A DNA stretch of 24,680 bases from a virus. Below the pieces are notes generated by a model, which searched no databases, had not been told where the DNA came from, and was given only the letters and a program-made list of their open reading frames with translations. Shown piece after piece: positions 1 to 22,473 of the stretch. The stretch is taken from IMG/VR virus record IMGVR_UViG_3300030106_007014, positions 6,991 through 31,670 of that record; one strand, written 5' to 3'. Within the stretch, counting starts at the first letter, position 1; every line of letters begins with the position of its first letter. The position numbers and the translations under genes are program-made.

Positions 1-3000
1 CTACACCGTACTCTTGCGCTAACGTTTGCCCTTTGTCTAGTGGTAAAACATTAGGATTCATACCTTTATATTTTACACCATCTATGTAGTGTACTTGCTT
101 GTTAACATTAGGATTTATATACCTTACCCAACTAGGTATTATACCAGCTAGTACTTCAAGTCTTATACTTTTTTCAAATCCAAAGTCTTTATCAGGTAAA
201 GTTTCAGTGTAGTCAAAATCTTTACCTTTTAGTAGTTTGTCATAAATATTTGGTAAAGATATTTGAGTATAAGACTTCATGGCTTTTCTCATCACACGCG
301 GTGATAATAAATTTTGTTTAGCCATTACCCAAAGATATTGAGCAAAGTCAGTGGCTGGGTACATATGTTCTTCTGTATTTGGTAACCCTAAAGTATTACC
401 ACCTACAAGTCTAGAAGCAACTCTCATCCAATTAGCTTGAGTTGTAGATGTAACTTCTAACAAAGCAGCCCAATGCTTTCTGTTACCAGGATTATCTTGA
501 ATATCTTTTTGTATAGCCATCCAAATATCAATAAAACCTTTGTCAGATCTATCAAATAAATCTTTATTTTTGTTTATTTGATCTTGAACTTGCTTTGCTG
601 TTTTTTTACCGTATGTCGTTGTTCTTTTTATAGCAGCTTTTACGTTATCACTTTCTGGTGCAAAAGTACCACCGTTTTTCTCATACTCTTTAATAAAGTC
701 TTTTAACTGACCAACATTAGCAAATAACATTTTACGAGCAGCTATTCTTTCACCTTCGTTTATTTTATATTCTTTTACCTTCTTACCGTTTATTATTACG
801 TTTTTATATACTGCTCCAGAACCTACTAATTGACCATTTTGAAGCCAAAATGATTTAGGAAGTATTTTAAATCCAACTTTACTTAACCATGCTTTTTGTT
901 TTTCTTTGCCTTCTATTGTATTTAAATCAATGTCGCCAGATTCTTTTGATTTTGTTATACCTTTAGAAAACATAATTTTAGACATACCGTCACGTATTTT
1001 TAATGCTTTTGGGTTTTGTTTTCTTATTTCTTGATTAGTAATTACTTTGCCAAATAAATCTGCAAGTGCTATAATTCTAGCCGATGTATTTCTATTACGT
1101 GTAGGTTTACCTTCAATAATATCTATTAATGCTAAAAACTCAGAGTCTTTAATATTGGTACGTTTAACTTGACCTTTTAAACCAGCTTTAGTTTTAGCCC
1201 TAGTTTCTTTTTGTGTATACAAAGCTTGTAGTATAGTTCTAGGTACTCCAGTAGCTTGACCTTCAGCATCAAAACCTTGTGGTAATGCATCTATTACTAA
1301 TTGTTTGTTTTTATTAAACCATCTTTGAGCACTAGCAACTTCATCTTTTGTTAAATTAGCTTTACTTTTAATTTTAGCTGGTGATATACCTAATAATTCC
1401 CCTACAGTATTCATAACAGCATTAGGTACACTTTTAAAGTTTATTAAATTTTCTAAATCAAATGGTATTTTTGATACTTCTTTTGTAACTTTATCAGTAA
1501 TTTTTAATTTATCAGCGATAACTTGTCCTTTAGTTTTTCTTTCAGGTGTAACAACAGCATCTTCTGCAGTTTCTTGAGCAGCAACACCTCTAGCCTCTGT
1601 TACATCTGCTTCAAACTCTGTTTTAAGTATTCTGTTACCAGCTTCAATAGAACGTGCTGGTAAGAATTTATTTATATAAGCAGCTAAAGGTACACCGGAC
1701 TCAGGCTTGTACTCTCTAATAAGATCTAATATACCTCTTTTACCAGTTTCTATCTCATCAATAAGTAGTTGTTCATCGTAACCAGGCACATCTCTAAATC
1801 TTCTAGCTATACGAGTAGTAATAGGTTTAAACTGCTCTAATATGTCAAACAAACCTGCCTCACCTTGCTGTTCGTATATTTTTTGTACTGCATCAGAAGC
1901 TTCTTTTGAAGCTTTTATATCAACTATATCTTCTTCTCTAGTAACACCACCTCTTAATATTCTACCTTCGTAAGCAGCTTTATTAAAGCTAGATATATAA
2001 CTAAAAACATTATCATTGTCACTAAAGTCTATAAAGTTGTTTAACTTTTTACCTAGCGGTGTCATACTTATTGTTTTGTTTAAAAAGTTTTTAATACCAA
2101 AAAGCATGTTAAAATCATTTCTTTTAACAGCACCAATAGTAGTTAAATCACCTACTAAGTTAAGCATTTCTTCGTAATTAACGCCGTTGTTATCTATATC
2201 ATCGTTATAAGCTTTTTTACGTTTTACATAAAAATCATATACTTCTTTTGTTATTTGTTTGTTTTTAAGTTTAATTTTCATCAAAGCGTCAAGACCTAAT
2301 ATACCTTTTTTAGCAGCTTCTATTACTTCTCCATTTTTAATTAAACCTTGATCTCTATTTTCTTTATGAAATAATTCATGAACACCAGCTACAGCAGCTA
2401 TTTTACCATCTAAACTTGTTCCAAGTAATATATTTACTTTTTGATTATCAGTAAAAATATAAACACTACCATTTTTACCATCATCAATAAAAACAGCATT
2501 ATCTGAAAAAGCTTTTTGTTTAAATTCTGCTAAATCTTCATCTGACAAGTTGTTATCTTTTTTAACTTTAGCAAAAAATTCATCGTTAATTTTATCAGCA
2601 GTAATCTCTGTATAACTTGTACCTTTTTTCTTAGCTAAAGCTTTTGCAGCGCTATTGCTAAACGAAGCTATAGCTTGTAGATAAATTAATTCAGATTCAG
2701 ATTTAGTATTTTTTCTATTAGGATCTTTAATTGCTTTACCAGCTTCTTGTTCGTGTTTTTTTGTTTCAATACCAACTATAGACTGAATTTTTTCATTAAA
2801 ATCGTCATATTGTTTTTGAGCATCTTCTAATATAGATTTATCAATGTTAGACATGTTTAAACCATATTCTCCGCTAGTAGCTGCTTTTAATATTTCTTTT
2901 TTAGCATTATGTCTTTTTCTATCAAGCTCAAACACTTCTTGTAATTGATCAACTGTTAGACTTTCAGCTTTTTGAGTAATTCTAGCTGCATCAAAAAACA

Positions 3001-5716
3001 TTTCTTTTATTTTTCTTGTTTTAAGCTTTAATAATTTTCTTTTTTTATCTTTAGTTAAGTTAGGACTTTTTAATTGTTCATTAAGTTTTGCTACACTACT
3101 AAGTTTTATTTTAAAACTTTGTTTATCTTTATACGTGGCAAACGTATTTCTAATACCATTAAAAGAATTTCTAGCAGTACCCATAATACTCATACCACTA
3201 GCACCAAGAGCTACATCTCCAAAAAATTGCATATCAATACCATCTGTAAGACTTACATCTCTATCTAGTAAAACTCTATTAGTACCGTTGTTTATTAATT
3301 GAACACTAAATTCCTCAGGAAATTCAGTAACAATTGATAATCCAAAAGCTTTAGAATTACCTGCTGCTTTTTGCAAAAAAGTAGCATTAGCACCAACTTT
3401 AGACCATTTAGCAAAGTTTCTAGCTACAAGACCTTGACCAAATAATCTTTCCATAAACATATCAGCAAAACCAGATATTATACCCGCTCCATTTTGAAGA
3501 TAAAAAGGTGTGTTTAAAATATCTTGTTGTCGTTCTAACTCTTCGTTTAATTTTTCAAGTTCATCTTCGTTAGTTGTTCCAATAATTTTATTTTGTAAGT
3601 CAGGTATTAAACTAATAGCATTTCTCATTTCCCTTTCCTGCTGTAATATAGAACCTCCAAAACCTTGAGCAAAATAATTAGCGTATGCAACAGGAGATAA
3701 AGGTGTAATCATTAAAATAGCATTAAAATATGTAGAAGCATTATCAGCCATACCCATACCTATAGATTGAACAAGATTTTCTTTACTATACAATATTTTA
3801 TTAGCAAAAGCTTGTTGTTTAGAATCTGATAAAGCAATAAGTCTATCGAAAGTTTCTTTCTCAGGTATACCTAATAAATTAGTAAAAAAACCAGGTCCAG
3901 CTTTTGAAGCGTCTCCAGTTTCAACTTCAGGTAACAACTCATCAATAATTCTAGGAAATCTAGCTGCAATAGTCTCGTAACCACCTAACATAGTTTCTTC
4001 TAGACTCGCCATTGCTCTTTCGTAATTATTATAGTTTTTACCTAGAGCTTGTAGGTAAGCTTCTTCATTAATAACATTTTGATCAAACTGAGCATTATAA
4101 ACTTCTGCTTCTAACTCAATATTTGCTATTCTATTGTTAAACAAATCTGCAATATCGTTACTTTTTGAAGTTTCTAAAAGTTTTTGATTAGCTTGAAACT
4201 CACCTATTAATTTATTTCTTTTTATTCTATCAGCATAGCTAATATTTTCTATTTCACCTAAAGTTTCTATTTGATCAAGTAACTTTTTTTGAGTATTTAT
4301 TATAACACTCATATTTTCTTTTATTATACTTGATTCGTTTTCTAATCTTGTTTCTTCGTTATTTATAGCTTTTAATGCAGTGTTTAACTTTGATGCTTTT
4401 ACTTCAGCAATTTTACTTACAATAAAACCAGGAGCTGTTTCGTAGTAAAATTCATTACCTGGTTTTACTACGCCTTGTGCTTTTGCAAATTGATATATTT
4501 TTATAAAGTCTTTTGCAGATTTCTCATTAAAATCTATTGTAGTATTTTTAAAAGCAGCTGCAATAGTAGGAGTTCCTAATTTTTTATAAATATCATCAAA
4601 AGCTCTTCTATAAACAGCTTCACCAACATCGTTACCAGCAACTTGTATTTGTCTTAAAAGTTGCAATTGCGAAAGTTCATCATCTCTACCAAACGCATCA
4701 AGTTGATCTATAGTTTTATTAACTTGTATTTGAGCTTGTTCAAATTTAGCATCTTTTAAAACTTTGTTTACTGATTCAAAAGAAATTTTTTCGTTTTTTA
4801 ATAATTCTTTTAAATTTATATCACCTGTAAAATCTCTTTCAAGTTCTTTGTCAAATTGTTTATATATTTCCCAAGCTTCTTCTCCACCTTGTTCTTTAAT
4901 ATATTCTTCAAGATCTTCATCATTTATTTTTTTAGGTTCAAAAAATGTATTAGTTTCTGGATTAAATAATCTATCACCTACTGGAGGTTTGTTTCTTTTT
5001 TGCCAAGCTGGAAATTCATCTAGTTTAAAATAATTTTTACCCCAAGCTCTTTTAACAATATCAGAGTCTTCATCTACACTAGCTATATTGTTTTTTATAA
5101 TATCTTCAAGAGTACCTACATCATACTCTTTTTCTGCAGTAATTGTTGCTTCATCTAATTTTACACCTTCAAAACCAACCAAGCTAAAACCTTTTCGTTT
5201 TAACTCGTCTATGACTAAATCTTTTTTATCAGTATCTTCTATATTCTCAATAAAACTTTTTGCTTCATCAGTATTACCTTCGTTGTATAATGAAATAAAC
5301 TTGTTTGTTTTTTGAAGTACATCAAATGTAGAAGTACTCGTTAAAGCTTTAGTAGCATCAACTAATTCAGATGTAGGCTCTTGTATATCTAAACTTTCTT
5401 TAAATTCTATATCTTGACCTACTTTGTATAAATTTACATTGTAAATACCTTTTGTAAAGCTAGTACCTTCATAGTTTTCTCTTTTATCTAACTTTTGTTT
5501 CAAGCCCAAAGAAAAATCTTCCGAAGTTGATACCCCACTTTCGGGTGCTGTAGTCTCCGACGTTACAAGCGCACCTTTCTCCGCAACGTCTTCTTTCTTT
5601 TCCACAAGACCTTTTTTTTTCATTGTTTCTAAATATGAATCAAAATCCATATCATATTCTTCTGCTTTACCTTGTAAGAACTCTAAGGTAACTTCTTCGC
5701 CGTCTAATTCGTACAT
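1..5716 (-). CDS. Giant virion/ejection-type protein with HExxH zincin motif (3' end outside window)
   Basis: Hand translation from the ATG at 5714-5716 stays open for 1905 complete codons and leaves the window at base 1, so the C-terminus is missing. The start lies 5 bases after the stop of the preceding gene. Visible parts: an acidic N-terminus; a Ser/Thr/Glu-rich linker at about residues 39-67; charged helical stretches at about 440-540; a hydrophobic segment at about 660-690; and HELFH at residues 1113-1117 (2366-2380), an exact HExxH zinc-metalloprotease signature. A Glu pair at 1182-1183 (NYEEML) could supply the third zinc ligand. Residues about 1300-1365 resemble sigma-70 region 2. 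I find no cysteine. Giant cargo or ejection proteins are known in T7-like (gp16) and crAss-like phages. By position and size this is probably one, with a peptidase-like domain. The family as a whole is not one I can name, and the enzymatic activity is inferred. Confidence 0.85.
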   Translation of the reverse strand, partial: MYELDGEEVTLEFLQGKAEEYDMDFDSYLETMKKKGLVEKKEDVAEKGALVTSETTAPESGVSTSEDFSLGLKQKLDKRENYEGTSFTKGIYNVNLYKVGQDIEFKESLDIQEPTSELVDATKALTSTSTFDVLQKTNKFISLYNEGNTDEAKSFIENIEDTDKKDLVIDELKRKGFSLVGFEGVKLDEATITAEKEYDVGTLEDIIKNNIASVDEDSDIVKRAWGKNYFKLDEFPAWQKRNKPPVGDRLFNPETNTFFEPKKINDEDLEEYIKEQGGEEAWEIYKQFDKELERDFTGDINLKELLKNEKISFESVNKVLKDAKFEQAQIQVNKTIDQLDAFGRDDELSQLQLLRQIQVAGNDVGEAVYRRAFDDIYKKLGTPTIAAAFKNTTIDFNEKSAKDFIKIYQFAKAQGVVKPGNEFYYETAPGFIVSKIAEVKASKLNTALKAINNEETRLENESSIIKENMSVIINTQKKLLDQIETLGEIENISYADRIKRNKLIGEFQANQKLLETSKSNDIADLFNNRIANIELEAEVYNAQFDQNVINEEAYLQALGKNYNNYERAMASLEETMLGGYETIAARFPRIIDELLPEVETGDASKAGPGFFTNLLGIPEKETFDRLIALSDSKQQAFANKILYSKENLVQSIGMGMADNASTYFNAILMITPLSPVAYANYFAQGFGGSILQQEREMRNAISLIPDLQNKIIGTTNEDELEKLNEELERQQDILNTPFYLQNGAGIISGFADMFMERLFGQGLVARNFAKWSKVGANATFLQKAAGNSKAFGLSIVTEFPEEFSVQLINNGTNRVLLDRDVSLTDGIDMQFFGDVALGASGMSIMGTARNSFNGIRNTFATYKDKQSFKIKLSSVAKLNEQLKSPNLTKDKKRKLLKLKTRKIKEMFFDAARITQKAESLTVDQLQEVFELDRKRHNAKKEILKAATSGEYGLNMSNIDKSILEDAQKQYDDFNEKIQSIVGIETKKHEQEAGKAIKDPNRKNTKSESELIYLQAIASFSNSAAKALAKKKGTSYTEITADKINDEFFAKVKKDNNLSDEDLAEFKQKAFSDNAVFIDDGKNGSVYIFTDNQKVNILLGTSLDGKIAAVAGVHELFHKENRDQGLIKNGEVIEAAKKGILGLDALMKIKLKNKQITKEVYDFYVKRKKAYNDDIDNNGVNYEEMLNLVGDLTTIGAVKRNDFNMLFGIKNFLNKTISMTPLGKKLNNFIDFSDNDNVFSYISSFNKAAYEGRILRGGVTREEDIVDIKASKEASDAVQKIYEQQGEAGLFDILEQFKPITTRIARRFRDVPGYDEQLLIDEIETGKRGILDLIREYKPESGVPLAAYINKFLPARSIEAGNRILKTEFEADVTEARGVAAQETAEDAVVTPERKTKGQVIADKLKITDKVTKEVSKIPFDLENLINFKSVPNAVMNTVGELLGISPAKIKSKANLTKDEVASAQRWFNKNKQLVIDALPQGFDAEGQATGVPRTILQALYTQKETRAKTKAGLKGQVKRTNIKDSEFLALIDIIEGKPTRNRNTSARIIALADLFGKVITNQEIRKQNPKALKIRDGMSKIMFSKGITKSKESGDIDLNTIEGKEKQKAWLSKVGFKILPKSFWLQNGQLVGSGAVYKNVIINGKKVKEYKINEGERIAARKMLFANVGQLKDFIKEYEKNGGTFAPESDNVKAAIKRTTTYGKKTAKQVQDQINKNKDLFDRSDKGFIDIWMAIQKDIQDNPGNRKHWAALLEVTSTTQANWMRVASRLVGGNTLGLPNTEEHMYPATDFAQYLWVMAKQNLLSPRVMRKAMKSYTQISLPNIYDKLLKGKDFDYTETLPDKDFGFEKSIRLEVLAGIIPSWVRYINPNVNKQVHYIDGVKYKGMNPNVLPLDKGQTLAQEYGV

Positions 5717-5721
5717 ATTAT

Positions 5722-6789
5722 TTAATTATTTGGATTAAATGGATCATCTGTATTAACATTACGCATATCAGTAAAAACACCCATACTAACTGTAGTGTTA
5801 AAATTTATCCAATCTTCTTTAATATTACCACCTGCTTTTTTTAACAAGTTTTTTAAAACATCGTCTATTTTTCTAGTCGACTCTGAACTCTTTAATAAAT
5901 CTTTAAAACTTTCAAAATCTTGTTTATCAGCTTCGTTTAGTTTTTTACCTAGTGTAGTTTCTGAAAATTTATTAAAATCTTCAAGCATATCAGCTTTTAT
6001 TTTACCTACCCAAGTATCTATATAATCACCAGCCCATATTCTTCGCGGATCGTATAAACTACTATATAAAGTTTGTAATTGATTTTTTGCTATATCTGGA
6101 CTAACTTGTTTATTGTTTGCTAAAGATTTAACTCTATTAAAAACTCTATTTTCAGATGTTGTTTGCCAGTTTTTATCAGATTCAAGTAAAACTGGCATAG
6201 GATTAATGCTGTAAATATCATTTATCTCCATACCACTTAAGTATTGTCCATCTTCATTATTTCCTATAACTTGCGTTCCCCAAGTAGATGAACCAGTATT
6301 CATATCTACTTTTCTATCAAGTCTATATTCGCCTCTAAAAATTTGATCGTACATAAGCTTATCTTCAGTTGTTACCATAGGATGCATGTTGTTATAATTA
6401 TCTACAACATTCTTTCTAACAACATTATAACGCTCTGTTTCGTCCTTATATGTTGTTAACGCTTTTTCTATTCTGTTTTGTTGACCAGTATGATAAGCTC
6501 TTTCTTCATCACTTAAATTTCTTTTTGCCAATTGCTTAGCGTGTGAGTCCCATTCTGCTTTCCACTCTAAAACATATTTAAGTTCTGATGCGTTATAACC
6601 TCTAAAAGGATCTAAACTTGGTGAATTTTTTTTATACGCTTCTACTCTTTTACTAGACTCTTTAGCCCATTGTTGAATACCACCAGGTATCATTTTCATA
6701 TACTGTGTAGCTAATTTAACTCTAGCGTTACCAGAAGTATTATACATCGCGTTATAAGCGCGTCTTATTGATTGTAAATTTATTGCCAT
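5722..6789 (-). CDS. Helical virion protein, possible ejection/cargo protein
   Basis: A 355-residue protein I cannot assign to a named family. It starts with MAINLQSIRRAYNAMYN and is mostly charged and helical, with Lys/Glu/Asn-rich stretches at about residues 60-135 and 265-325. It has no signal peptide, no membrane segment, no cysteine and no recognisable catalytic motif. It ends in an Asn/Pro/Asp-rich tail. It sits 10 bases after the glycine-zipper protein gene and 5 bases before the giant protein gene, so the three are surely co-transcribed and probably act together. T7 gp15 occupies the matching position between gp14 and gp16, although gp15 is about twice as long (747 residues). An internal virion protein is the best guess, from context only. 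Confidence 0.8.
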   Translation of the reverse strand: MAINLQSIRRAYNAMYNTSGNARVKLATQYMKMIPGGIQQWAKESSKRVEAYKKNSPSLDPFRGYNASELKYVLEWKAEWDSHAKQLAKRNLSDEERAYHTGQQNRIEKALTTYKDETERYNVVRKNVVDNYNNMHPMVTTEDKLMYDQIFRGEYRLDRKVDMNTGSSTWGTQVIGNNEDGQYLSGMEINDIYSINPMPVLLESDKNWQTTSENRVFNRVKSLANNKQVSPDIAKNQLQTLYSSLYDPRRIWAGDYIDTWVGKIKADMLEDFNKFSETTLGKKLNEADKQDFESFKDLLKSSESTRKIDDVLKNLLKKAGGNIKEDWINFNTTVSMGVFTDMRNVNTDDPFNPNN

Positions 6790-6799
6790 TTTATTATTA

Positions 6800-7534
6800 T
6801 TAACTAAAAATAGTACCTAACGTTCCACCTAGTCCACCACCAATTTGTGCGCCAGCTGGACCACCAATTATAGCTCCAGCAACAGTACCAAAAAGACTAC
6901 CAACTGCTCCACCCATTTGTGCTTGATCAGCTTCATATTGTTGTAGTCCTAGTTGTGCAGAACCATATTGTTCAGCAGCTATGTTAAGCAAACTCTCTTG
7001 TTGACCATACTCTAATCCTTGAAGTGTCATTTCTCCTTGAGCTTTAGCCATGTTTACTTGCATTTGACCTTGAGCTATACTTTGTTGTATTCTTGAAGCT
7101 TCTTGCGCTCTCATTCTAGAGTTTTGAGCTTCTTGAGCACCAATAGAAGCAGCTGATCTTTGTGTGTTTATAGCTTGTTGATTTGCCATAGCTTGAGCTA
7201 ACGATGCAACTCCAGAACTACCAGCAGCACCTCTTAAAGCGTTTAAAGCTTGAGCTTGATTAGCTGTTTGTTGTTGAGCTTCAAATTGAGCTTGTTGGCT
7301 ATTAACACCTAACAAACCCATCATGTTTACTTGATTAGCATAAGGATTACCCATACCCGCAAAAGCGTTTTGAAACTGAAAGTCTTCAATTGCTTGAACT
7401 TGACTTTCAAAGTTTTGTTTTTGAGTATCAACTTCACCTTGTAATTTATCTGCTTCATCATCATCACCGCCAAAAAGCCCAAAAAACTTAAATGGTGAAA
7501 GCTCTATTTTTTTAGTTATTTTACCGTACGCCAT
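6800..7534 (-). CDS. Gln/Ala-rich glycine-zipper protein, likely internal virion (ejection) protein
   Basis: A 244-residue protein in three parts. The first is a short N-terminus with an Asp-rich patch (GLFGGDDDEADK). The second, at about residues 30-205, is a long, very Gln/Ala/Met-rich helical region of low complexity. The third is a C-terminal Gly/Ala-rich hydrophobic segment (AGAIIGGPAGAQIGGGLGG) with GxxxG spacing typical of glycine zippers that pack in membranes. This layout recalls small podovirus ejection proteins such as T7 gp14, which enter the host envelope at infection. The sequence gives layout, not clear homology. The gene is the first of the putative cargo trio. The start ATG follows an A/T leader with no Shine-Dalgarno. 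A 47-base spacer (7535-7581) separates it from the gene before; I see no terminator or promoter there. Confidence 0.8.
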   Translation of the reverse strand: MAYGKITKKIELSPFKFFGLFGGDDDEADKLQGEVDTQKQNFESQVQAIEDFQFQNAFAGMGNPYANQVNMMGLLGVNSQQAQFEAQQQTANQAQALNALRGAAGSSGVASLAQAMANQQAINTQRSAASIGAQEAQNSRMRAQEASRIQQSIAQGQMQVNMAKAQGEMTLQGLEYGQQESLLNIAAEQYGSAQLGLQQYEADQAQMGGAVGSLFGTVAGAIIGGPAGAQIGGGLGGTLGTIFS

Positions 7535-8977: not shown

Positions 8978-11900
8978 TTATAAATTTCCTGAATATGAGT
9001 TAGAAACTAAAATACCGCTACTAGAGCCACTTGGTGCATAAATACCAACACCAAGTGTATTACTTTGTGCAGCTAAAGAAGTTTCACTATTATCACTTTT
9101 TATAAAAAACTGTACTTTATTGGTTTGTAAAGCTGTGTCTCCTTCTTTTAAAAATGTTGAATTAATACTACCTACACCAAAAACGTTTTTACCACTAAAA
9201 TCAATTTGACCGTCAGCGTGAATACTACCGCTAAAAGGTGAACCAGCATTTGTCCAGTTAGGAGGACTAGTTGGTGAGCTTGGATTTTTACCACCTTTTA
9301 TGTAATCGTAATGTTTATTATTTATATTTTTAAAACTATTACCAACATGACCATCTTCAATATCTGTTAATATATCTTCAACAACAGCCCAACCTAAATC
9401 ACCAGAGTAGTTTAAAGTTTTAAATTCTTTTGAAACACTAGGTAACTGATTTATAATACATGTTATTGTAGATTTATATTGGTTGTTGTAAAAATTATTA
9501 CAACTTATATTATTACCAAAAGAATCTTTTTCTTTATGATGTTTGTATATATTTCCATTCATAAAAGTATAATACTCAGAATTTAAACTTAAAGATTGAG
9601 CTTCTGGAATAAAAGATTTAAACGAACTCCAACCAACAGTGTATTCACTAAAACTTACTGTTATAGCTTCTTTAGATGATTCACTAGGAGAGTTTATAGT
9701 TACATTATACTCTTGCTTTCTTTCATCATAAGATCCTATTATAGAAGAAGCATTTTGAGTATTATCTAAGAAAAAGTCTCTCATACCAGTTTCTGATATT
9801 GTTGTTAAACCGTTTCTTGATAATCTAAGAACAACACCTCTAGCTTTGTCAACAAAGTATTGTCTATGGCCATAAACAGCAAACGACTCTGGATTTAAAG
9901 ATATACCATATTCACCTACGTAAGGTGTTGCTTGACCTAATACAGCGTTTGAAGCTGTAATATTAGTTGATCCATCAGCATTAAATAAAGCATCTTTATT
10001 AGCTAATATATTTAAAACTTTATCTTCACAAAAAGCTGTTAAGTTTGTATCTTTAGCATAAAGTTTTTGTATTGAACCAAATCTTGGTGACAAGTCTTTT
10101 GTAATAGGTAAACCAGCATTAAATTGATTTAATTCATTAACTTGAGATCCACTATTATATAACCCAGACCAAATAAAACCACTAGATTTATGATTTTCTT
10201 CAGTATTTTGTAGTATTGTAGAAGCTTTAATTCCTTTTTGTAAAACATTACCTGATAACGAGCCTTTCATTCTAGATGTTTGTAAAGGAAGATGTTCTGA
10301 TTGACTTACACAATTAACCCAATATAAATCTATAACAGAAGTAGCAGTTGGATTGTTTGGTGTTGGATGTGTTTGGTTGTATAAAACAGCTTCAGTATCC
10401 CCTGCATTGATTTGATTTTTAAGCCTAAGTCTAAAAGTTGACTTAGAGTCTTTATTTTTAAAACCTAATTGAGTTTGATAAGCTCCTAAAATAACTTGTT
10501 GACTAGGTTGATTTAAAGAAACAACTACATCATCATCTATATTAATAGTTGGTTTAGCTGATACTGAACTTGTAAATACTTGTATTCCAGGTTGTAGATT
10601 TTTTTGTAAATCTTGATTTGTAAAATTATTTTTTGTAGGAGAAATTCTATATGAAACTTCTTGTTGTTCTTTTATAAAATCTTTAACATTTTTATCATTT
10701 ATATAAACAGGTATTGCTTCTGAAGCTTCCCACCAAAGATCTAAATCAGAGTCATTTTTTGGAACAACTTCAAAATGAAAAGATTTTCTTGATTGTTTAA
10801 ATGCATTAACATCAAAGTTTGCAGCAGTAGGTCCATTAGAGCCATATAAACCAAAACTTCCATCAATACCTAGTTGACTTTCTAAAGAACCATCTCCAGC
10901 AATAATTAAATACATGTACGCTCCTTTATCAAAAGCTTGCTGAGTAGTAGCTTGACCTCCATAAGTAGAGGTATCACTATACTGACCTATAGGTGTTCCA
11001 ACAGATTTATTAATAACTCTATACCTTTTTTGATTAGGACCATTTAAAAATATTAATTCATCGTTTATTTGAACTTTATCTTGCTCACCAGCTCCACATA
11101 AAATTGTTATTTCGTTTGTACCATCTATATCATCATATAAAGCTCCTACAACACCTATATTACTATGTATAAAACTAGGCTCTTTTACAAATATTTTATA
11201 AGAATGGGCCCAATATGGTGCAAAATTTCTAATTTCTACTTGCAACCTCATAGCATGTAAACCTTCTGTTTTAGAAGTAGTATACACAGCATCATTAGAA
11301 GTTACAACAGGAGCTTCTCTACCAAACTCATCTATATATACAATTCCAACAGAATAAGTTCTACTAGCTTTCACACTTAATTCAGGTCTTGTAAAATCAA
11401 CAGCTGCAACTTTAACAGTACTTACTTTAATATCAGGTTCTATTATTTTACCAGAGTGATCTAACATTTCAAAACCTTCCGTGTAATTTCCATAAACTAA
11501 TCTATTACCTATTATTTCTTGAGCAACAGCTTTTTTAGGTACGTTATCAAAAATTCTAAGTTTTTGATTAGGATCTAAAACTCTACCAAAATATTCTTTA
11601 TTTATTTTAGCAAAACCATTTAAACCAGCGCTTGAACCCGCCCTGTTCCATTCAATACTACCGTTATTACATTTTAATATTTCGTATATATTTTGATCAT
11701 TATCTCTTTTATATAAAATATCAACACCAACAACATCTTTAGGTGTTGAAGTTGATACAAAATCTTTTACCTCTACAGACGCGATAGTGTTATACATACC
11801 TTCGTTATTACCAGATCTATCTAATAACAAAGCTCTTCCTTTAAACAAAGGCGGTGTCCAAGGACCTATAGGTGAAACTTCTCCATCTTCATATTCATAT

Positions 11901-14266
11901 CTGTAAGATAATCTAAAAAAGTCATCTCTATTTATTCCATTACCGTCTTCTGCAAAACCATAAAATCTTCTATATTCACCAGCTGCATTATCATCATCTA
12001 TAGTTATATCAAGTATTATAAAACCTACAGTTAAAGCAGCTGAAAAACCAGCAACACCGTCACTATTATCAGCCCAATCAGTAGGTGTACTAAAAGGATG
12101 TAGTTTAACTGTAAAAGAATTACCAGGTGCTAATGGATCTCTAAACGTAAATACATCACCATCAGCCCAATCTGATAGTGGGCTAAGTGAATTAGCTTGA
12201 GGATATCCTGTAAAAGGATAAGCACTAAAATTAGGTGGATTATATCCATTATTACCAAACTCACCAAGATTTACATCAAATAAATCTTGTGGATATAAAT
12301 TGTTATAATCTGTTTGGTTTAAATTATTATTAGTCGCAAAATAATTAGAAGTATCGTTATTAAAAGGCGAGCCGTCAACTCCTGGTTGGCATAAAAAATA
12401 TGATCTATAATATTGTTGATCATAGTTATCGGTAGGTGATCTAAACGAGTATGGAAATTGGCTTGATGTTTGGTTGTTAACTAATTGATTTCCTACAAGA
12501 TCATACTGTTGTCTACTTCTAAATATACCTTGTATTTCATCTTGTGTAAAACCTACTGGAGTAGCGTCAGCATCAGGATTAAAAGAGTCATATCCGTCAG
12601 TCATTTGCTGACCAAAATTAGTTAAATATGAAGTGTCATCGTGTTTTACATGAGGAGGTACAGGGGCTGCGGAGAAATTATATATATTTTGAAGTGTAGT
12701 ATTATTAATTTGATCATTACCTCCAAATATACTAAAACCATCAGAGTTAGGTGTAGATGTACCAAAACCATTAAAACCAAACACAGCTGGAAAAACAAGC
12801 TCAGGACCAGCATAACCACTTCCTCCAGGCGCAGCGCCAGCAGTTAAAATCCATTGAGTTCTAAGTTCTGAAAGTCTTATTAAGTTTAAATATTTTCTAC
12901 CAGTACCATTTGGCTGTGGGTTAGGGCTATTGCCAACTGAACTATTCATTCCTGAGCTAAAGTTATTAGATAAAACTTGAGCAAAATAATCAGCTACTTC
13001 ATCACTAGTATAACCGTTTTGAAGCAAATGGTTTATTATATCTTGTCTTTCTCCTGGTGGAACACACATCATACGAACACCACCAGCTTGCCATTTATAA
13101 GCTTCTGTAAAATCATACTCTTCTAAAGCATCGCTTGATTTAAGTATAGTATGTAACTTATGTTTTGGTGCAGGTTTTATAACAGTAATATGACTTTCTT
13201 CTATTGGACAAACAGACATTAATTGACCAAACTCTTTGTTTGTAACTAGTAAATCAGTATGTTTTTGGCTATTTAAAGTTTGATCAGTACCTTCTAAACA
13301 TCTTTGTATATTTATTTTTTTTGGCTCATTAAAACCATCTGTAAACATTAAAAATTTACTTTCTAAAATATTTATACCTGTTATTAAATTACTAGGTGTT
13401 GGAGTTGGTGAAGCAAAATTATTTTCATCTAAAGAATTTGTTAAAACTTCAGAAGTTTTAAAATTTAAAACTCTTTTTGGTGCGTCAAAAACTACTGTAT
13501 AACCATTAGCAATAATATCTGATGGGTTTATATTTTTTGGACAATTATGCGAAAGCGTTACAAAAGGATATGTGTTGGTTGCAGGATCGTATTCTTGAAA
13601 AACGTTTGTTACTAATATTTTATCGTTACCGCTAGTCCAATGTGGAATACCATTTCTATCAACAACAGTTACTTCCATACCAACTCTAACACAACTAGCA
13701 TCATAAACTAAAAGTTGATTTAAACTAGAACTACAAAACCAAAAACCAGTTGCAACTCTATAAACATCTCTTAATACACACTCTGTTAAAACTTGATCTC
13801 TAACATCATCAGGAGATATTTTAACTATTTCATCAATACCTTTTCCAAAATAAACAGAACCGTTAGGCGTCATGTCAGTATTAACTGGATTATTTAAAGC
13901 ATCAAACGGGTTAATATCATTATTATCGAAAGAATTACTAATATCAACAATACCTAAATTACCAAAAGGATTATATGTTGTAGGTCTAGCACAGTCAGCT
14001 ATTAACATATACATACAGTTAGCAGCGTTATCAACAATAGAACCTACAGTTTGACCTGCTGCAACGTTTTCAACTCTTTGACCTTCTTTATTATAACCAA
14101 AAACATTTTCGTTACCAAAAAGATTTTGAACTGCACCAACATCACTACCTTCAGAAGTGTTTATTTGAACATTTAAAGCATCTCGATATTCGCCATTAGG
14201 TACAACGCGTTCATCAAGGTCTTTTTGCATTCTACCTTTTAAAAAATTAACTTTAGACTCAGCCAT
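8978..14266 (-). CDS. Tail muzzle/nozzle-type stabilisation protein (1762 aa)
   Basis: The N-terminus (VNFLKGRMQKDLDERVVPNG, then EYRDALNVQI) matches my memory of the conserved start of the tail stabilisation or muzzle protein of crAss-like phages and related marine podoviruses. Two later blocks agree with a propeller-like tail protein: YSVGIVYIDEFGREAPVV near residue 980, and YGHRQYFVDKARGVVLRL near residue 1470, followed by ISETGMRDFF. In known relatives this protein forms the distal tail tube below the ring proteins. Residues about 440-695 form a long Asn/Phe/Tyr/Gly/Pro-rich stretch that looks like an insertion. The C-terminus is rich in Ser, Gly and Pro. The gene starts 3 bases after the ring protein gene. 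The reading frame is continuous over 5.3 kb with no sign of frameshift. Assignment to a tail-tip structural role is confident; the exact crAss-like equivalent is inferred. Confidence 0.85.
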   Translation of the reverse strand: MAESKVNFLKGRMQKDLDERVVPNGEYRDALNVQINTSEGSDVGAVQNLFGNENVFGYNKEGQRVENVAAGQTVGSIVDNAANCMYMLIADCARPTTYNPFGNLGIVDISNSFDNNDINPFDALNNPVNTDMTPNGSVYFGKGIDEIVKISPDDVRDQVLTECVLRDVYRVATGFWFCSSSLNQLLVYDASCVRVGMEVTVVDRNGIPHWTSGNDKILVTNVFQEYDPATNTYPFVTLSHNCPKNINPSDIIANGYTVVFDAPKRVLNFKTSEVLTNSLDENNFASPTPTPSNLITGINILESKFLMFTDGFNEPKKINIQRCLEGTDQTLNSQKHTDLLVTNKEFGQLMSVCPIEESHITVIKPAPKHKLHTILKSSDALEEYDFTEAYKWQAGGVRMMCVPPGERQDIINHLLQNGYTSDEVADYFAQVLSNNFSSGMNSSVGNSPNPQPNGTGRKYLNLIRLSELRTQWILTAGAAPGGSGYAGPELVFPAVFGFNGFGTSTPNSDGFSIFGGNDQINNTTLQNIYNFSAAPVPPHVKHDDTSYLTNFGQQMTDGYDSFNPDADATPVGFTQDEIQGIFRSRQQYDLVGNQLVNNQTSSQFPYSFRSPTDNYDQQYYRSYFLCQPGVDGSPFNNDTSNYFATNNNLNQTDYNNLYPQDLFDVNLGEFGNNGYNPPNFSAYPFTGYPQANSLSPLSDWADGDVFTFRDPLAPGNSFTVKLHPFSTPTDWADNSDGVAGFSAALTVGFIILDITIDDDNAAGEYRRFYGFAEDGNGINRDDFFRLSYRYEYEDGEVSPIGPWTPPLFKGRALLLDRSGNNEGMYNTIASVEVKDFVSTSTPKDVVGVDILYKRDNDQNIYEILKCNNGSIEWNRAGSSAGLNGFAKINKEYFGRVLDPNQKLRIFDNVPKKAVAQEIIGNRLVYGNYTEGFEMLDHSGKIIEPDIKVSTVKVAAVDFTRPELSVKASRTYSVGIVYIDEFGREAPVVTSNDAVYTTSKTEGLHAMRLQVEIRNFAPYWAHSYKIFVKEPSFIHSNIGVVGALYDDIDGTNEITILCGAGEQDKVQINDELIFLNGPNQKRYRVINKSVGTPIGQYSDTSTYGGQATTQQAFDKGAYMYLIIAGDGSLESQLGIDGSFGLYGSNGPTAANFDVNAFKQSRKSFHFEVVPKNDSDLDLWWEASEAIPVYINDKNVKDFIKEQQEVSYRISPTKNNFTNQDLQKNLQPGIQVFTSSVSAKPTINIDDDVVVSLNQPSQQVILGAYQTQLGFKNKDSKSTFRLRLKNQINAGDTEAVLYNQTHPTPNNPTATSVIDLYWVNCVSQSEHLPLQTSRMKGSLSGNVLQKGIKASTILQNTEENHKSSGFIWSGLYNSGSQVNELNQFNAGLPITKDLSPRFGSIQKLYAKDTNLTAFCEDKVLNILANKDALFNADGSTNITASNAVLGQATPYVGEYGISLNPESFAVYGHRQYFVDKARGVVLRLSRNGLTTISETGMRDFFLDNTQNASSIIGSYDERKQEYNVTINSPSESSKEAITVSFSEYTVGWSSFKSFIPEAQSLSLNSEYYTFMNGNIYKHHKEKDSFGNNISCNNFYNNQYKSTITCIINQLPSVSKEFKTLNYSGDLGWAVVEDILTDIEDGHVGNSFKNINNKHYDYIKGGKNPSSPTSPPNWTNAGSPFSGSIHADGQIDFSGKNVFGVGSINSTFLKEGDTALQTNKVQFFIKSDNSETSLAAQSNTLGVGIYAPSGSSSGILVSNSYSGNL

Positions 14267-17341: not shown

Positions 17342-18781
17342 CTATGATAATAACATAAAGTTATTAGCACCTTGAGTAACTAAACATCTTTCAGACAAGA
17401 AGTTTACAGTCATTGCATCTAAGTCAGAAGTAACTGCTCCCACAGATCCAGTGATCCATGTTTTCATTTTTCTACTTTCAACTTGAGAAGCTCTAAAACG
17501 TACATGTAAGAAAGGACGCTTAAGGTTTTTACCTAACATCTGATCATATACAGAAGATACACCAGCAGGAATAAATACACCTCTGATAGCTTCACCACCA
17601 GTCGCGTTAGCGTTAATACCACCACGAGTAGCTAGATCATTTAGATATTTCCAGTCAGACTTATAGAAGTCATAAGAACCTCTTCTAAATCCAGAGAAAC
17701 CTAAGTTTAACGCCATGTCTTCATCGTTTTCAAACACTCCGTAAGAAGTACCACCGTGACCGTGAGAGTTCATAGTAGCTAACATATCATCGATAGCTAA
17801 AGCAGTAGTTCTATTTAAGAACATCATGTTTTCTTCAATCGCACCGTTCTTGTCAAACTCAGCTAAGATAGCATCAAATTCAGCTAAATCAGTAGCAGCG
17901 TTAATACCAGTAATACCAGAAGATTGGTGACCTCTAGACTTAATAGCAGCGAATAAACCTTCAGTACCTGCTGTACCAGCACCACCATCAGTTGGTAGAG
18001 CGATAGCAGAGTTACCAGCAACTAGTTCTGATTCAATCATACTCATTTCTAAGTAGTCCATAAATCTTGAACGAGTTTCAGCTTCAGCTTTCATATACCA
18101 GTAGTAACCGCTTTCACCTTGCTCTCCAGAAACTTCTACCCAACCGATTTGAGATACATCAGATCCAGATACTTCGTACTGATCTTTTAGTATAATAGGC
18201 TTGTTAGTAAAAGTTGTGAAAGAAGGCTCGTTAGAACGTCCACCTACATAACCAACACCTTTTGCGTTTTCAGAACCAAATACTAAAATAGTACAGTCAT
18301 CATCACCATCAACAAAGCTTAAATCACTTAAGTGAGAGTGAGCATAAGGTTGAACTGTAATTCTATCATTAGCATCAGCAGCTGCAGCAACGCTTACACG
18401 AGCTGTAACAGTTTGTCCACCACCAGCGATCAATACTTGATCACCAACACGGATACCGTGAGTTGTGTTGATAGCAACACCGTCAATATCGTGTGTAATA
18501 TCGATTTGACTAGCAGATGCATCGTGAATTTGACACTTATAAGATAAGTGTAATCTACCTTGTTCTGACCAAATAACTTGATCAGCAGACATAGCTTCTT
18601 CAGCTCCTACTTGAGCTAAGAAACCGCCAATTGTACGCTTTCCGTACACCTCAGCTTCTTTTTCCATTAAGTCTGGAAGATATTGCTGAGCCCATCCATT
18701 ATTTTGGATGTCTAAATAGTTTTCCGATGTTACAGCTTGCACTGGGGCAGCTCTAAACACCGTACTTGGAGTAATTGCCAT
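17342..18781 (-). CDS. Major capsid protein (HK97-fold type)
   Basis: A 479-residue protein with the length, place and composition of crAss-like and related major capsid proteins. It follows the scaffold-like gene and precedes a strong terminator. The N-terminal region (VFRAAPVQAVTSENYLDIQN) and the middle block (SFTTFTNKPIILKDQYEVSG, then an acidic helix AEAETRSRFMDYLEMSMIES) look like the N-arm and the E-loop/spine-helix region of HK97-fold capsids of this group. The C-terminal half is rich in Ala and Gly. Base composition is higher in GC than in its neighbours: a hand count over 18421-18480 gives 28 of 60. This suggests codon choice for high expression. The start ATG lies in an A/T leader with no Shine-Dalgarno, 28 bases after the previous stop. 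The capsid call rests on position, length and remembered blocks. Confidence 0.85.
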   Translation of the reverse strand: MAITPSTVFRAAPVQAVTSENYLDIQNNGWAQQYLPDLMEKEAEVYGKRTIGGFLAQVGAEEAMSADQVIWSEQGRLHLSYKCQIHDASASQIDITHDIDGVAINTTHGIRVGDQVLIAGGGQTVTARVSVAAAADANDRITVQPYAHSHLSDLSFVDGDDDCTILVFGSENAKGVGYVGGRSNEPSFTTFTNKPIILKDQYEVSGSDVSQIGWVEVSGEQGESGYYWYMKAEAETRSRFMDYLEMSMIESELVAGNSAIALPTDGGAGTAGTEGLFAAIKSRGHQSSGITGINAATDLAEFDAILAEFDKNGAIEENMMFLNRTTALAIDDMLATMNSHGHGGTSYGVFENDEDMALNLGFSGFRRGSYDFYKSDWKYLNDLATRGGINANATGGEAIRGVFIPAGVSSVYDQMLGKNLKRPFLHVRFRASQVESRKMKTWITGSVGAVTSDLDAMTVNFLSERCLVTQGANNFMLLS

Positions 18782-20052: not shown

Positions 20053-22473
20053 TTATCTAGGTTCAAACGATCCTAAATCAAAGCCAGCTCCAAGTATATC
20101 ATTACCTGAAGACTCAAACTTTTTAGGTGGTGAACCTGTCTTTCTTTGTTCTATAAGTTCACTTTGTTGTGAAGCTTGTATTCTTGTTCTTTCATCTTTA
20201 CGATCTTCTTTTTCTTTTTCTTTTGACTTTTGACCTTCAGTTTCTACACCTTTTAAACGCATGTTGTACTCAAACTCTAATTGCATTAATTGTTTTTTCA
20301 AATCAGACTCTGCTTGAAGCTTTTGAACATCAGCTTGATTTTGTATTTGAATTAATTGAGCTTTTTGTTGTGTTAAAGCTGCGTTTTTTTGAACTTCAGC
20401 TTGAGCGGCAACTTGTTGAGATTGCGCGTTAGCTTGAGCTTGAGCTTTAATATTTTCTTGTTGTATAGCTTGATCTTTCTTTAATTTCTTTTCTCTTCTT
20501 ATTTTAAGTAGTTGATTAGCTAGTTTTATATTTTTAATTTCTCTAAGATCAATAGCATCTGCTAGCTCTATTAAGTTTGCTTGTAAAGCAACTTGAATGT
20601 TGTTTTCTAATAACTGCCTTTCTTCATCATCTGGTGTAAGATCTATAAATATACCAAAATCATATAAATGTAGTTCTGATAACTCATCTAATATAGCTGT
20701 GTTATGAGAACCTATTGTACTTATAAAAGCTTCTTTTGTTGGAGAGTATTCTAATATATCAGATATTCTCAAAGAAAGTAACTCAGCTGTTTGAGCTGTT
20801 AAAAATAATCCAGCATTCAATATATGTCTTGTTGCTGTGTTACTGTTAGCTGCTGCTATTTTTTGTATACCTACTAAAGCGTTTTTATCTGGCGTGCTAC
20901 CATCTCTAGCTTCATTAAGCCCGGTAACATCACGAATCATTTGTAAATAATAATTGTAAGTTTGTATAAGACTAGCCATTTTCTGTCCACCACTACCACT
21001 TGCTATTTCTTGTATAGGTACTCTACCTGGATTACCTTCACCAAGCTCGTTCATTGATCTACCAATAACAGAACCTGTTTGGAAGAACATGTTTAAAGCT
21101 TCTTGTGGATTATAATTTGTTCCGTTACCTAAATCTATTTCAGCTAAACCATCAGCATCAAGATAAACGCCATCTGGCACCATACGAGACATAACTTGCT
21201 GTAGTTTTAAATGTGTTAACTGTATCATATCAGCAAAACCAGTTATACGACTAACTAAACTTTCTATTCTACCATTGTACATTTTAGGTGCTACAATAGC
21301 ATAATTCATTTTAACTTTAGTATAATCACTTTTAGATCTCATCATGTTTTTACACATTTCCCATCTAAGTAATTTATCTGTACCAAGTATCAAAGCACCA
21401 TCATATAAAGTTTCTACAGATCTTTGTAATCTACTAAAACCACCTTCCATATCTTTTGGAGGATTAAATGTATCATCTTTTTCAATTGCTTTTATTCCAC
21501 CTGTTTTTGTTTCTTTTAACTTATAAACATGATTCATATATGTTTTATAGTTAAAGTATAATATAGATATTATATTTTCATCTAACTTACTACTATCTCC
21601 TCTTGAGTAGTTATTTCTATATGTATTATTTTGTTTTTTAATTTGGTCTAGTTCTTCTTCAGATAAAAAAGGAAACTGCTTTACCAACTCGTTAATAGGT
21701 ATTTCTTTTACTTCTCCCACATAATATATATCTTCAAAATAAGGAGACTCTGTATAAGAATAAACTAAATTAGCTGGATCAACATAATCTATAACTACAC
21801 CTTCAGATGTATTAAAAGAAGTTTTTACAGCACCTATACCTATCTCTGTAATATCTTGATAAAATCTTCTTTTAATTAACTCGTAGTTGTTACCTTCCAT
21901 TAAAACATTAATAGCTTGCTCTTCTGCTATTTCTGCAGCTTGCTTGTAAGTTAATTGCATATGAAGCTCAAACTCTTCAACACTATCAGGTAGTTCGTCT
22001 ACTTCGTTTCTGTAAACGCTCATACCAAAACTATTTTCTATAAACTTGTTTAATTCTTGAGATCTTAAATCTGCTAGCACAGACTCCATATACTCTGTTC
22101 TTTTAGAAACTCCATACGGATCTTGAGCATAAGCTTTTACATCATAAGTTCTTTGAGCAAGTCCATTAACTACAATGTCAACAAACTTAGGAATAATTGG
22201 AACTGGCTTCCAGTCTAAATTTAAATAAGATAAATCACCATCAATAGATAACTCATCTTTGTATTTTTGTATTGATTGCTCGCCTCTAGCGTAAAGTCTT
22301 AATCTATGAAAATTAGTTTGAGTGTTTCTGTATCGACTATTAGTTCTTTGACGATCATTTTCAAACCACTCTTGTTCGATAGCTTTAGCCACTTTCAAAC
22401 CATACTCATAACTTATTTTTTCAAAGTCACTAACAGTTTGACTTGGGAAGTAATTACTTTTAACTGTAGCCAT
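20053..22473 (-). CDS. Portal protein with extended Gln/Ala-rich barrel
   Basis: An 806-residue protein directly after the terminase, 2 bases from its stop, where the portal is expected. The core has an N-terminal helical wing and a central block with GSGGQKMASLIQTYNYYLQM followed by RDVTGLNEARDGSTPDKNAL, which I associate with portals of crAss-like and marine phages. Residues about 655-770 form one long helix, very rich in Gln, Ala, Lys and Glu, resembling the coiled-coil barrel that extends the portal channel into the head in P22. The end (ILGAGFDLGSFEPR) is a short ordered-looking tail. It should form the dodecameric vertex ring that docks the terminase during packaging and later binds the neck proteins. 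The length is at the upper end for portals because of the barrel. Confidence 0.88.
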   Translation of the reverse strand: MATVKSNYFPSQTVSDFEKISYEYGLKVAKAIEQEWFENDRQRTNSRYRNTQTNFHRLRLYARGEQSIQKYKDELSIDGDLSYLNLDWKPVPIIPKFVDIVVNGLAQRTYDVKAYAQDPYGVSKRTEYMESVLADLRSQELNKFIENSFGMSVYRNEVDELPDSVEEFELHMQLTYKQAAEIAEEQAINVLMEGNNYELIKRRFYQDITEIGIGAVKTSFNTSEGVVIDYVDPANLVYSYTESPYFEDIYYVGEVKEIPINELVKQFPFLSEEELDQIKKQNNTYRNNYSRGDSSKLDENIISILYFNYKTYMNHVYKLKETKTGGIKAIEKDDTFNPPKDMEGGFSRLQRSVETLYDGALILGTDKLLRWEMCKNMMRSKSDYTKVKMNYAIVAPKMYNGRIESLVSRITGFADMIQLTHLKLQQVMSRMVPDGVYLDADGLAEIDLGNGTNYNPQEALNMFFQTGSVIGRSMNELGEGNPGRVPIQEIASGSGGQKMASLIQTYNYYLQMIRDVTGLNEARDGSTPDKNALVGIQKIAAANSNTATRHILNAGLFLTAQTAELLSLRISDILEYSPTKEAFISTIGSHNTAILDELSELHLYDFGIFIDLTPDDEERQLLENNIQVALQANLIELADAIDLREIKNIKLANQLLKIRREKKLKKDQAIQQENIKAQAQANAQSQQVAAQAEVQKNAALTQQKAQLIQIQNQADVQKLQAESDLKKQLMQLEFEYNMRLKGVETEGQKSKEKEKEDRKDERTRIQASQQSELIEQRKTGSPPKKFESSGNDILGAGFDLGSFEPR

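Follow-up and report, generated by a model that had tools for sequence, protein, structure and literature searches.

What is a giant, nearly cysteine-free phage protein with a peptidase motif for, and does it enter the host with the genome? The question is raised by a 24,680-base stretch of viral DNA, here called the window, which covers positions 6991-31670 of a 31,670-base IMG/VR record. We propose that its largest gene is the last of a cysteine-free ejection triad and encodes a polyvalent protein that combines a zincin, a sigma-like and a HAD-like part and would be cleaved in cis by its own peptidase; for this model as a whole we estimate a probability of about one half.

The giant gene and its structural operon

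The genes that bear on the argument are these:

22476..24680, minus strand: terminase large subunit (TerL), 5' end outside the window
20053..22473, minus strand: portal protein
17342..18781, minus strand: probable major capsid protein (MCP), by position, size and PHROG (virion structural protein)
8978..14266, minus strand: muzzle-like tail protein, 1762 aa, Pfam crAss_MUZ_C above cut-off
6800..7534, minus strand: 244-aa Cys-free protein, small triad member, C-terminus glycine-rich and hydrophobic
5722..6789, minus strand: 355-aa Cys-free protein, middle member of the putative ejection triad
2..5716, minus strand: giant gene, visible for 1905 of ~2857 codons, the rest lying beyond the 10-N gap that adjoins the window

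As the initial annotation had it, the open reading frames of the window include one that runs from an ATG at 5716 to position 2 on the minus strand, stop-free over 1905 codons up to the window edge. That account treated the visible frame only and overlooked its truncation. A 10-N scaffold gap (L002:6981-6990) sits immediately before the window start, and a 945-aa ORF resumes the giant frame on its far side. In a relative about 95-97% identical (G001, IMGVR_UViG_3300037991_006876), both parts form a single frame, with seven residues at the junction across the gap position (...QEYGV-DVDAKYR-MNQD...). We therefore rejected the idea that the giant ends at the window edge; read-through in G001 puts the real protein at about 2857 aa. 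The earlier description "cysteine-free" holds for the visible 1905-codon body but not for the whole protein, whose C-terminus beyond the gap (RCTKIKSDGERC...TRCHYHD) contains three cysteines. Together with a histidine these form a Cys3-His tail in the last residues, RCTKIKSDGERCKIMVNKPKTRCHYHD, which resembles a small zinc finger. Such tails, with the pattern C-x9-C-x10-C-x-H or close variants and sometimes doubled (L020, L026), are carried by a series of otherwise Cys-free giants (the C-terminus of L002:4131-6968, minus strand; L014, L016-L020, L026). Downstream of the giant, a further ORF of the phage genome (L002:3-911, minus strand) consists of repeated GCTDPTALNYNPLANVEDSSC-type Cys-rich units and has the look of a surface protein.

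Tblastn of the whole giant protein against cultured phages gave no match, and Pfam, PHROG and PDB yielded nothing useful when searched with only the window protein or only its domain; its relatives were drawn from IMG/VR. The giant sits within the late structural operon. In the direction of transcription the order is TerL, portal, an acidic 405-aa protein, the probable MCP, proteins of 273, 410 and 296 aa (the last two with virion-protein PHROG matches), the 1762-aa muzzle-like protein, two small proteins, the 244-aa and 355-aa proteins and the giant. The muzzle-like protein contains the crAss muzzle C-terminal domain PF25729 (32.8 bits against a cut-off of 27), and the nearest isolates by portal protein are phages of Flavobacterium, Cellulophaga, Maribacter and Tenacibaculum. 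MW202828, Panino, Elemovirus and phi38:1 share the gene order, with a giant as last structural gene. In the model to which we give even odds, the virus would infect flavobacteria as a podovirus whose muzzle is of the crAss type; this marine-type Bacteroidetes phage probably injects the giant along with its DNA. The positional counterpart in Panino (L007:13229-18718, 1829 aa, 0 Cys) is labelled 'tRNA methyltransferase', probably a misannotation.

Cysteine content sets the last three proteins apart. Elsewhere in the window, the proteins for packaging, portal, head and muzzle have 34 Cys in 4316 aa, a rate at which about 15 would be expected in 1905 aa, and the visible giant has none; a baseline from neighbouring ORFs (0.127%) was set aside because spurious frames and further putative ejection proteins are among them. 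The giants of 80 relatives contain 13 Cys in a total of 179,232 aa. Counts for the last three proteins are 0, 0, 0 in phi38:1 (200, 549, 1691 aa), in Elemovirus (202, 450, 3694 aa) and in Panino (216, 500, 1829 aa), and 0, 0, 1 in ctfjg026 (302, 644, 3859 aa). The virion RNA polymerase of N4, gp50, is likewise the last gene of a Cys-free triad (gp52, gp51, gp50; 150, 644, 3500 aa; 0, 0, 0), and the T7 triad (196, 747, 1318 aa) has 1, 0, 0. The PhicrAss001 virion cargo (gp45-gp50; PMC10172136), whose genes likewise follow that of the muzzle, amounts to 7478 aa with 7 Cys. The terminases of the same phages (about 0.8-1.6% Cys) and most of their portal, head and muzzle proteins do contain cysteine; some of their MCPs and scaffold-like proteins also have none.

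Synteny, and a cysteine avoidance common to the ejected proteins of N4, T7 and crAss001, both support the earlier suggestion that the giant is ejected. That a lack of cysteine suits unfolding is a sound reading, already published for N4-like virion RNA polymerases, in which disulphides would hinder injection (PMC3915230); the PhicrAss001 cargo is thought to be ejected in a partly unfolded state (PMC10172136). The 244-aa, 355-aa and ~2857-aa proteins would form a three-protein Cys-free ejection cassette, giant last, as the same even-odds model has it, and we infer that the giant resides in the virion, is ejected with the genome and refolds. The glycine-rich hydrophobic end of the 244-aa protein (window 6800-7534) is a possible membrane-channel segment, as in podovirus ejection proteins. 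The near-absence of cysteine across ejection cassettes of unrelated podoviruses offers a simple sequence flag for ejected proteins in metagenomes.

The zincin motif and its conservation

The peptidase features of the visible giant are the following:

1937..2569, minus strand: zincin-like metallopeptidase domain, residues ~1050-1260, by invariant residues and an Elemovirus profile match
2366..2380, minus strand: HELFH, residues 1113-1117, with predicted zinc ligands H1113 and H1117 and general base E1114
2168..2170, minus strand: E1183, predicted third zinc ligand, kept in 79/80 relatives

HELFH and the downstream pair E1182/E1183 are present where they had been reported. HELFH is the sole HExxH in the visible giant, where composition predicts 0.002 per protein; with this expectation, and with the motif conserved, a chance match was rejected. 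Close relatives were uninformative, and we therefore aligned the giants in two ways. Alignment A1 comprised the HExxH-flanking regions of 24 giants that are 12-20% identical to the window, to which one nearly identical row was added; its rows were selected on HExxH and not on E1183. H1113, E1114, H1117 and E1183 were its only invariant columns, and they were again the sole invariant positions in alignment A6. The second set was unselected for the motif, consisting of 80 loci found through the downstream sigma-like domain. The initial annotation had proposed as a check that both His and both Glu be conserved across homologues, and they are: HExxH is intact in 77/80 relatives (the remaining 3 have EELFH), the second His and the first, general-base Glu are kept in 80/80 and the Glu at 1183 in 79/80, at a median identity of ~23% across the zincin region. 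Of the two Glu first named as possible third ligands, E1183 is the conserved candidate and E1182 is not. The motif precedes the downstream domain by 155 to 255 aa, mostly 175, in 77/80.

The domain reaches into a cultured phage. Window-type and Elemovirus-type domain profiles match over 145 columns (probability 97.7), and a profile from the 80 relatives finds the Elemovirus giant at 1515-1674 (E 8e-12). This 'structural protein' (QLF85284.1, 3694 aa) occupies the same cassette position, with 0 Cys and a homologous zincin domain whose motif reads HEIFH; it differs in that DUF3293 is present and no sigma-like domain was detected. Elemovirus is cultured on Flavobacterium sp. BAL314. HExxH is absent from the phi38:1, Panino and L027 giants. 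Together with EELFH in three relatives, this implies that the peptidase is not universally essential and is dispensable in some lineages. The three EELFH domains (L075, L077, L110), which lie upstream of the sigma-like core and keep all else, are possibly dead or altered-metal versions. The MW202828 giant (L006:744-12320, 3859 aa), annotated 'reticulocyte binding/rhoptry protein', has two HEFGH motifs (1615, 2500), the second of which matches the zincin profile.

Which family does the domain belong to? Peptidase_M78/IrrE was matched by 6/36 domain members (best 3.9e-7), and one relative (L070/G027) passes the Pfam threshold for Peptidase_M78 (PF06114; 25.1 bits against a cut-off of 22) with match coordinates that span HExxH and Glu. 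Further weak matches were to SprT, DUF2268, DUF3267 and M1, and PDB profile searches with the zincin returned weak zincin matches only (M48, snapalysin, IrrE). In Pfam, the window's own domain matched no zincin family and did not reach the M78 cut-off, and MPTase-PolyVal (PF18818) matched 0/18 records. M78 peptidases (IrrE/ImmA) likewise have HExxH and a downstream Glu, whereas the window domain has no Pfam match and is embedded in a giant virion-type protein. Ligand conservation and the one relative above the M78 cut-off thus support the original zincin assignment at the level of sequence: the domain is very likely a zincin, in our model one of the gluzincin type, with M78/IrrE as its apparent nearest Pfam family. 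The structure prediction first suggested as a check did not confirm the fold. AlphaFold, from the 24-row alignment, produced a model too poor to rely on (pLDDT 59, pTM 0.50). In it HELFH is placed in a confidently predicted helix rather than in a loop, behind two short strands, and E1183 is in a later helix, in the expected order; Foldseek with this model found no zincin among its matches.

The sigma-like domain and the HAD-like part

Behind the zincin lies a second domain, about 175 residues downstream of the motif, which the first analysis had overlooked:

1541..1927, minus strand: sigma-70 region-2-like domain, residues ~1264-1392, by AlphaFold model, Foldseek, hhalign and occurrence in at least 140 viral contigs
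842..1540, minus strand: conserved helices that follow the sigma-like core on its C-terminal side, residues ~1393-1625, with no recognisable sigma region 4

The domain was found in none of the bacterial genomes scanned. It is much better conserved than the zincin (60-90% in most relatives), and S1274, V1277 and Q1278 are kept in 80/80. AlphaFold modelled residues 1262-1625 with a pLDDT of 72, around 80 over the sigma-like part. Nearly all of the best 50 Foldseek matches in PDB were RNA polymerase sigma factors (best E 0.014, probability up to 0.97), with TM-scores of about 0.2 over the two-domain model. In BFVD an uncultured-virus giant came first (E 2.6e-6), followed by a phage Sigma70-ECF (E 0.0028, probability 1.00) and then by SigF, RpoE and FliA homologues; many of the named phage matches were sigma factors. 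Hhalign against E. coli RpoS, RpoD and FliA gave 40 and 38 for the two segments containing 1285-1370 and at most 19 for 15 others. Its register is that of sigma region 2.1-2.2 (LLIDEIETGKRGILDLIREYKPESGVPLAAYIN against RpoS), and in the divergent giants L027, L030, L019, L026 and L017 the strongest sigma match falls at this position too. Proteins of Elemovirus, N4 and crAss001 gave nothing convincing against sigma in the hhalign comparison.

Sequence searches of the window against sigma factors yielded nothing significant (E 0.1-1.4, level with antitrypsin and OPA1), Pfam Sigma70_r2 matched single divergent members only, and sigma region 4 (PF04545) was not found in the giants of 15 records. 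The domain shares with the sigma-70 factors (RpoS, RpoD, ECF sigmas) a predicted fold and a segment like region 2.1-2.2; it differs from them in having no significant sequence match and no region 4, and in being fused inside a protein of ~2.9 kaa. On the predicted structure, residues ~1264-1392 probably adopt a sigma-2-like fold; that they act as a sigma factor is doubtful. One relative that also carries a giant, G006, encodes in a separate 253-aa frame (C1:44179-44343, plus strand) a Sigma70_r4 match above cut-off (E 8e-9), perhaps the DNA-binding half that the giant lacks, perhaps just an ordinary regulator.

A HAD motif I, which reads DFDETL in the part of the giant beyond the gap, occurs in 40/61 long-enough relatives, 636-912 aa after the sigma-like core; our default guess for this HAD-like part is a phosphatase. 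The giant thus combines effector-type domains, a conserved zincin, a predicted sigma-like domain and, in those relatives, the HAD motif, and by this combination it would be a polyvalent protein in the sense of Iyer et al. (2017, PMC5512222), with delivery into the host suggested by synteny and cysteine avoidance. Polyvalent proteins are likewise giant, multidomain and probably delivered at infection, with an HExxH + Glu zincin-like hub domain; the window giant differs in its lack of an MPTase-PolyVal Pfam match. A peptidase inside an ejected giant, which the initial annotation had singled out as notable, is a known theme: no domain is more frequent in the polyvalent proteins of phages, N4 virion RNA polymerase included, than the zincin-like MPTases (PMC5512222; PMC12633501), and N4 gp50 has one HExxH, at 2228, and a conserved HExxH in its C1 domain (PMC12633501). 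What appears to be new is the conserved, apparently common zincin plus sigma-like architecture, the sigma part by predicted fold. We did not find it in the literature searched, and the term 'sigma factor' is absent from the text of the polyvalent-protein survey (PMC5512222).

Possible roles of the giant on infection

How might these parts work together? The giant would be packaged in the head, threaded unfolded through the tail and refolded in the host. Once ejected, or towards the end of packaging, the giant would be cut by its own peptidase, acting chiefly in cis; this would free the sigma-like part, which would engage host RNA polymerase and start early phage transcription. The zincin's near-constant distance before the sigma-like domain (77/80) is why we favour action in cis; cleavage and polymerase binding are both inferred steps. 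As a guess, the cut would fall at about 1253-1287, where a linker leads into the next helix and where S1274, V1277 and Q1278 lie. N4 virion RNA polymerase is packaged unprocessed despite its MPTase (PMC5512222), which argues against obligate self-cleavage.

Given the likeness to M78/ImmA, the main rival is a peptidase that acts in trans, cutting a host or resident-prophage protein after injection as M78/ImmA enzymes cut repressors, while the sigma-like domain does its work independently. The M78/IrrE family, the nearest Pfam match, includes the repressor-cleaving ImmA, and a sequence that diverges quickly (~23% identity) while its active site stays invariant is in keeping with a target that changes. 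Iyer et al. name trans action as a possibility (PMC5512222). The near-constant placement before the sigma-like domain, however, suggests a role in cis, and we regard trans action as a possible but tentative reading. A maturation protease that trims the giant, or something else inside the head, by the time packaging is under way or earlier, is unlikely: P1 DdrB, for which this has been proposed, is processed prior to packaging, and our gene lies in a late structural operon, but the MPTase-bearing N4 polymerase is packaged uncut (PMC5512222). We think it more unlikely still that the zinc site is structural or catalytically dead and the domain kept for packaging or folding. EELFH in 3/80 relatives, the lack of HExxH in phi38:1, Panino and L027 and the need for the N4 MPTase region in encapsidation (PMC5512222) would fit such a site, yet the general-base Glu, which a structural site does not need, is kept in 80/80.

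The sigma-like domain could also be a look-alike helical bundle with no part in transcription. This is a serious possibility, if not one we favour: the sigma sequence matches are not significant and stand level with unrelated proteins, region 4 is missing and TM-scores are about 0.2 over the two-domain model, whereas sigma factors make up nearly all of the best 50 PDB Foldseek matches and recur in BFVD, and the hhalign match is limited to the right segment and register. That the giant is never ejected, being an external or tape-measure-like structural protein, seems very improbable. Its cultured relatives are annotated only as 'structural protein', but gene order and size pattern are as in the N4 and T7 ejection cassettes, and the Cys-free body is like known ejected proteins, whereas muzzle, terminase and most portal proteins bear Cys.

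Returning to the model of an ejected, self-cleaving giant, its interest lies in how a phage starts transcription in a naive cell. Two ways are well known: promoters recognised by the host sigma factor, or an injected RNA polymerase, as in N4 and crAss phages. N4 brings its own RNA polymerase, whereas in the window giant none was recognised and a sigma-like domain is present instead. PhicrAss001 differs in a similar manner: gp47, gp49 and gp50 are RNA-polymerase-associated (PMC10172136), and no sigma-like match was found. The crAss001 protein gp47 (L051:4220-11245) has HEAFH at 2157, then EENMAEGF, a possible zincin with a weak match in one of two profiles.

A sigma-like domain would be a novelty among the proteins that phages inject, and a conserved adjoining protease would give a concrete reason for the recurring peptidases of injected giants, an open question in the polyvalent-protein literature. 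In its boldest form, which we consider speculative and rather unlikely, a ready-made sigma factor would be injected, freed by the adjacent zinc protease and hand host RNA polymerase to phage promoters as the DNA enters, and this would apply across a large, uncultured group of aquatic phages. If true, the injected sigma would be a third way to start phage transcription, beside the virion RNA polymerases of the N4 and crAss types.
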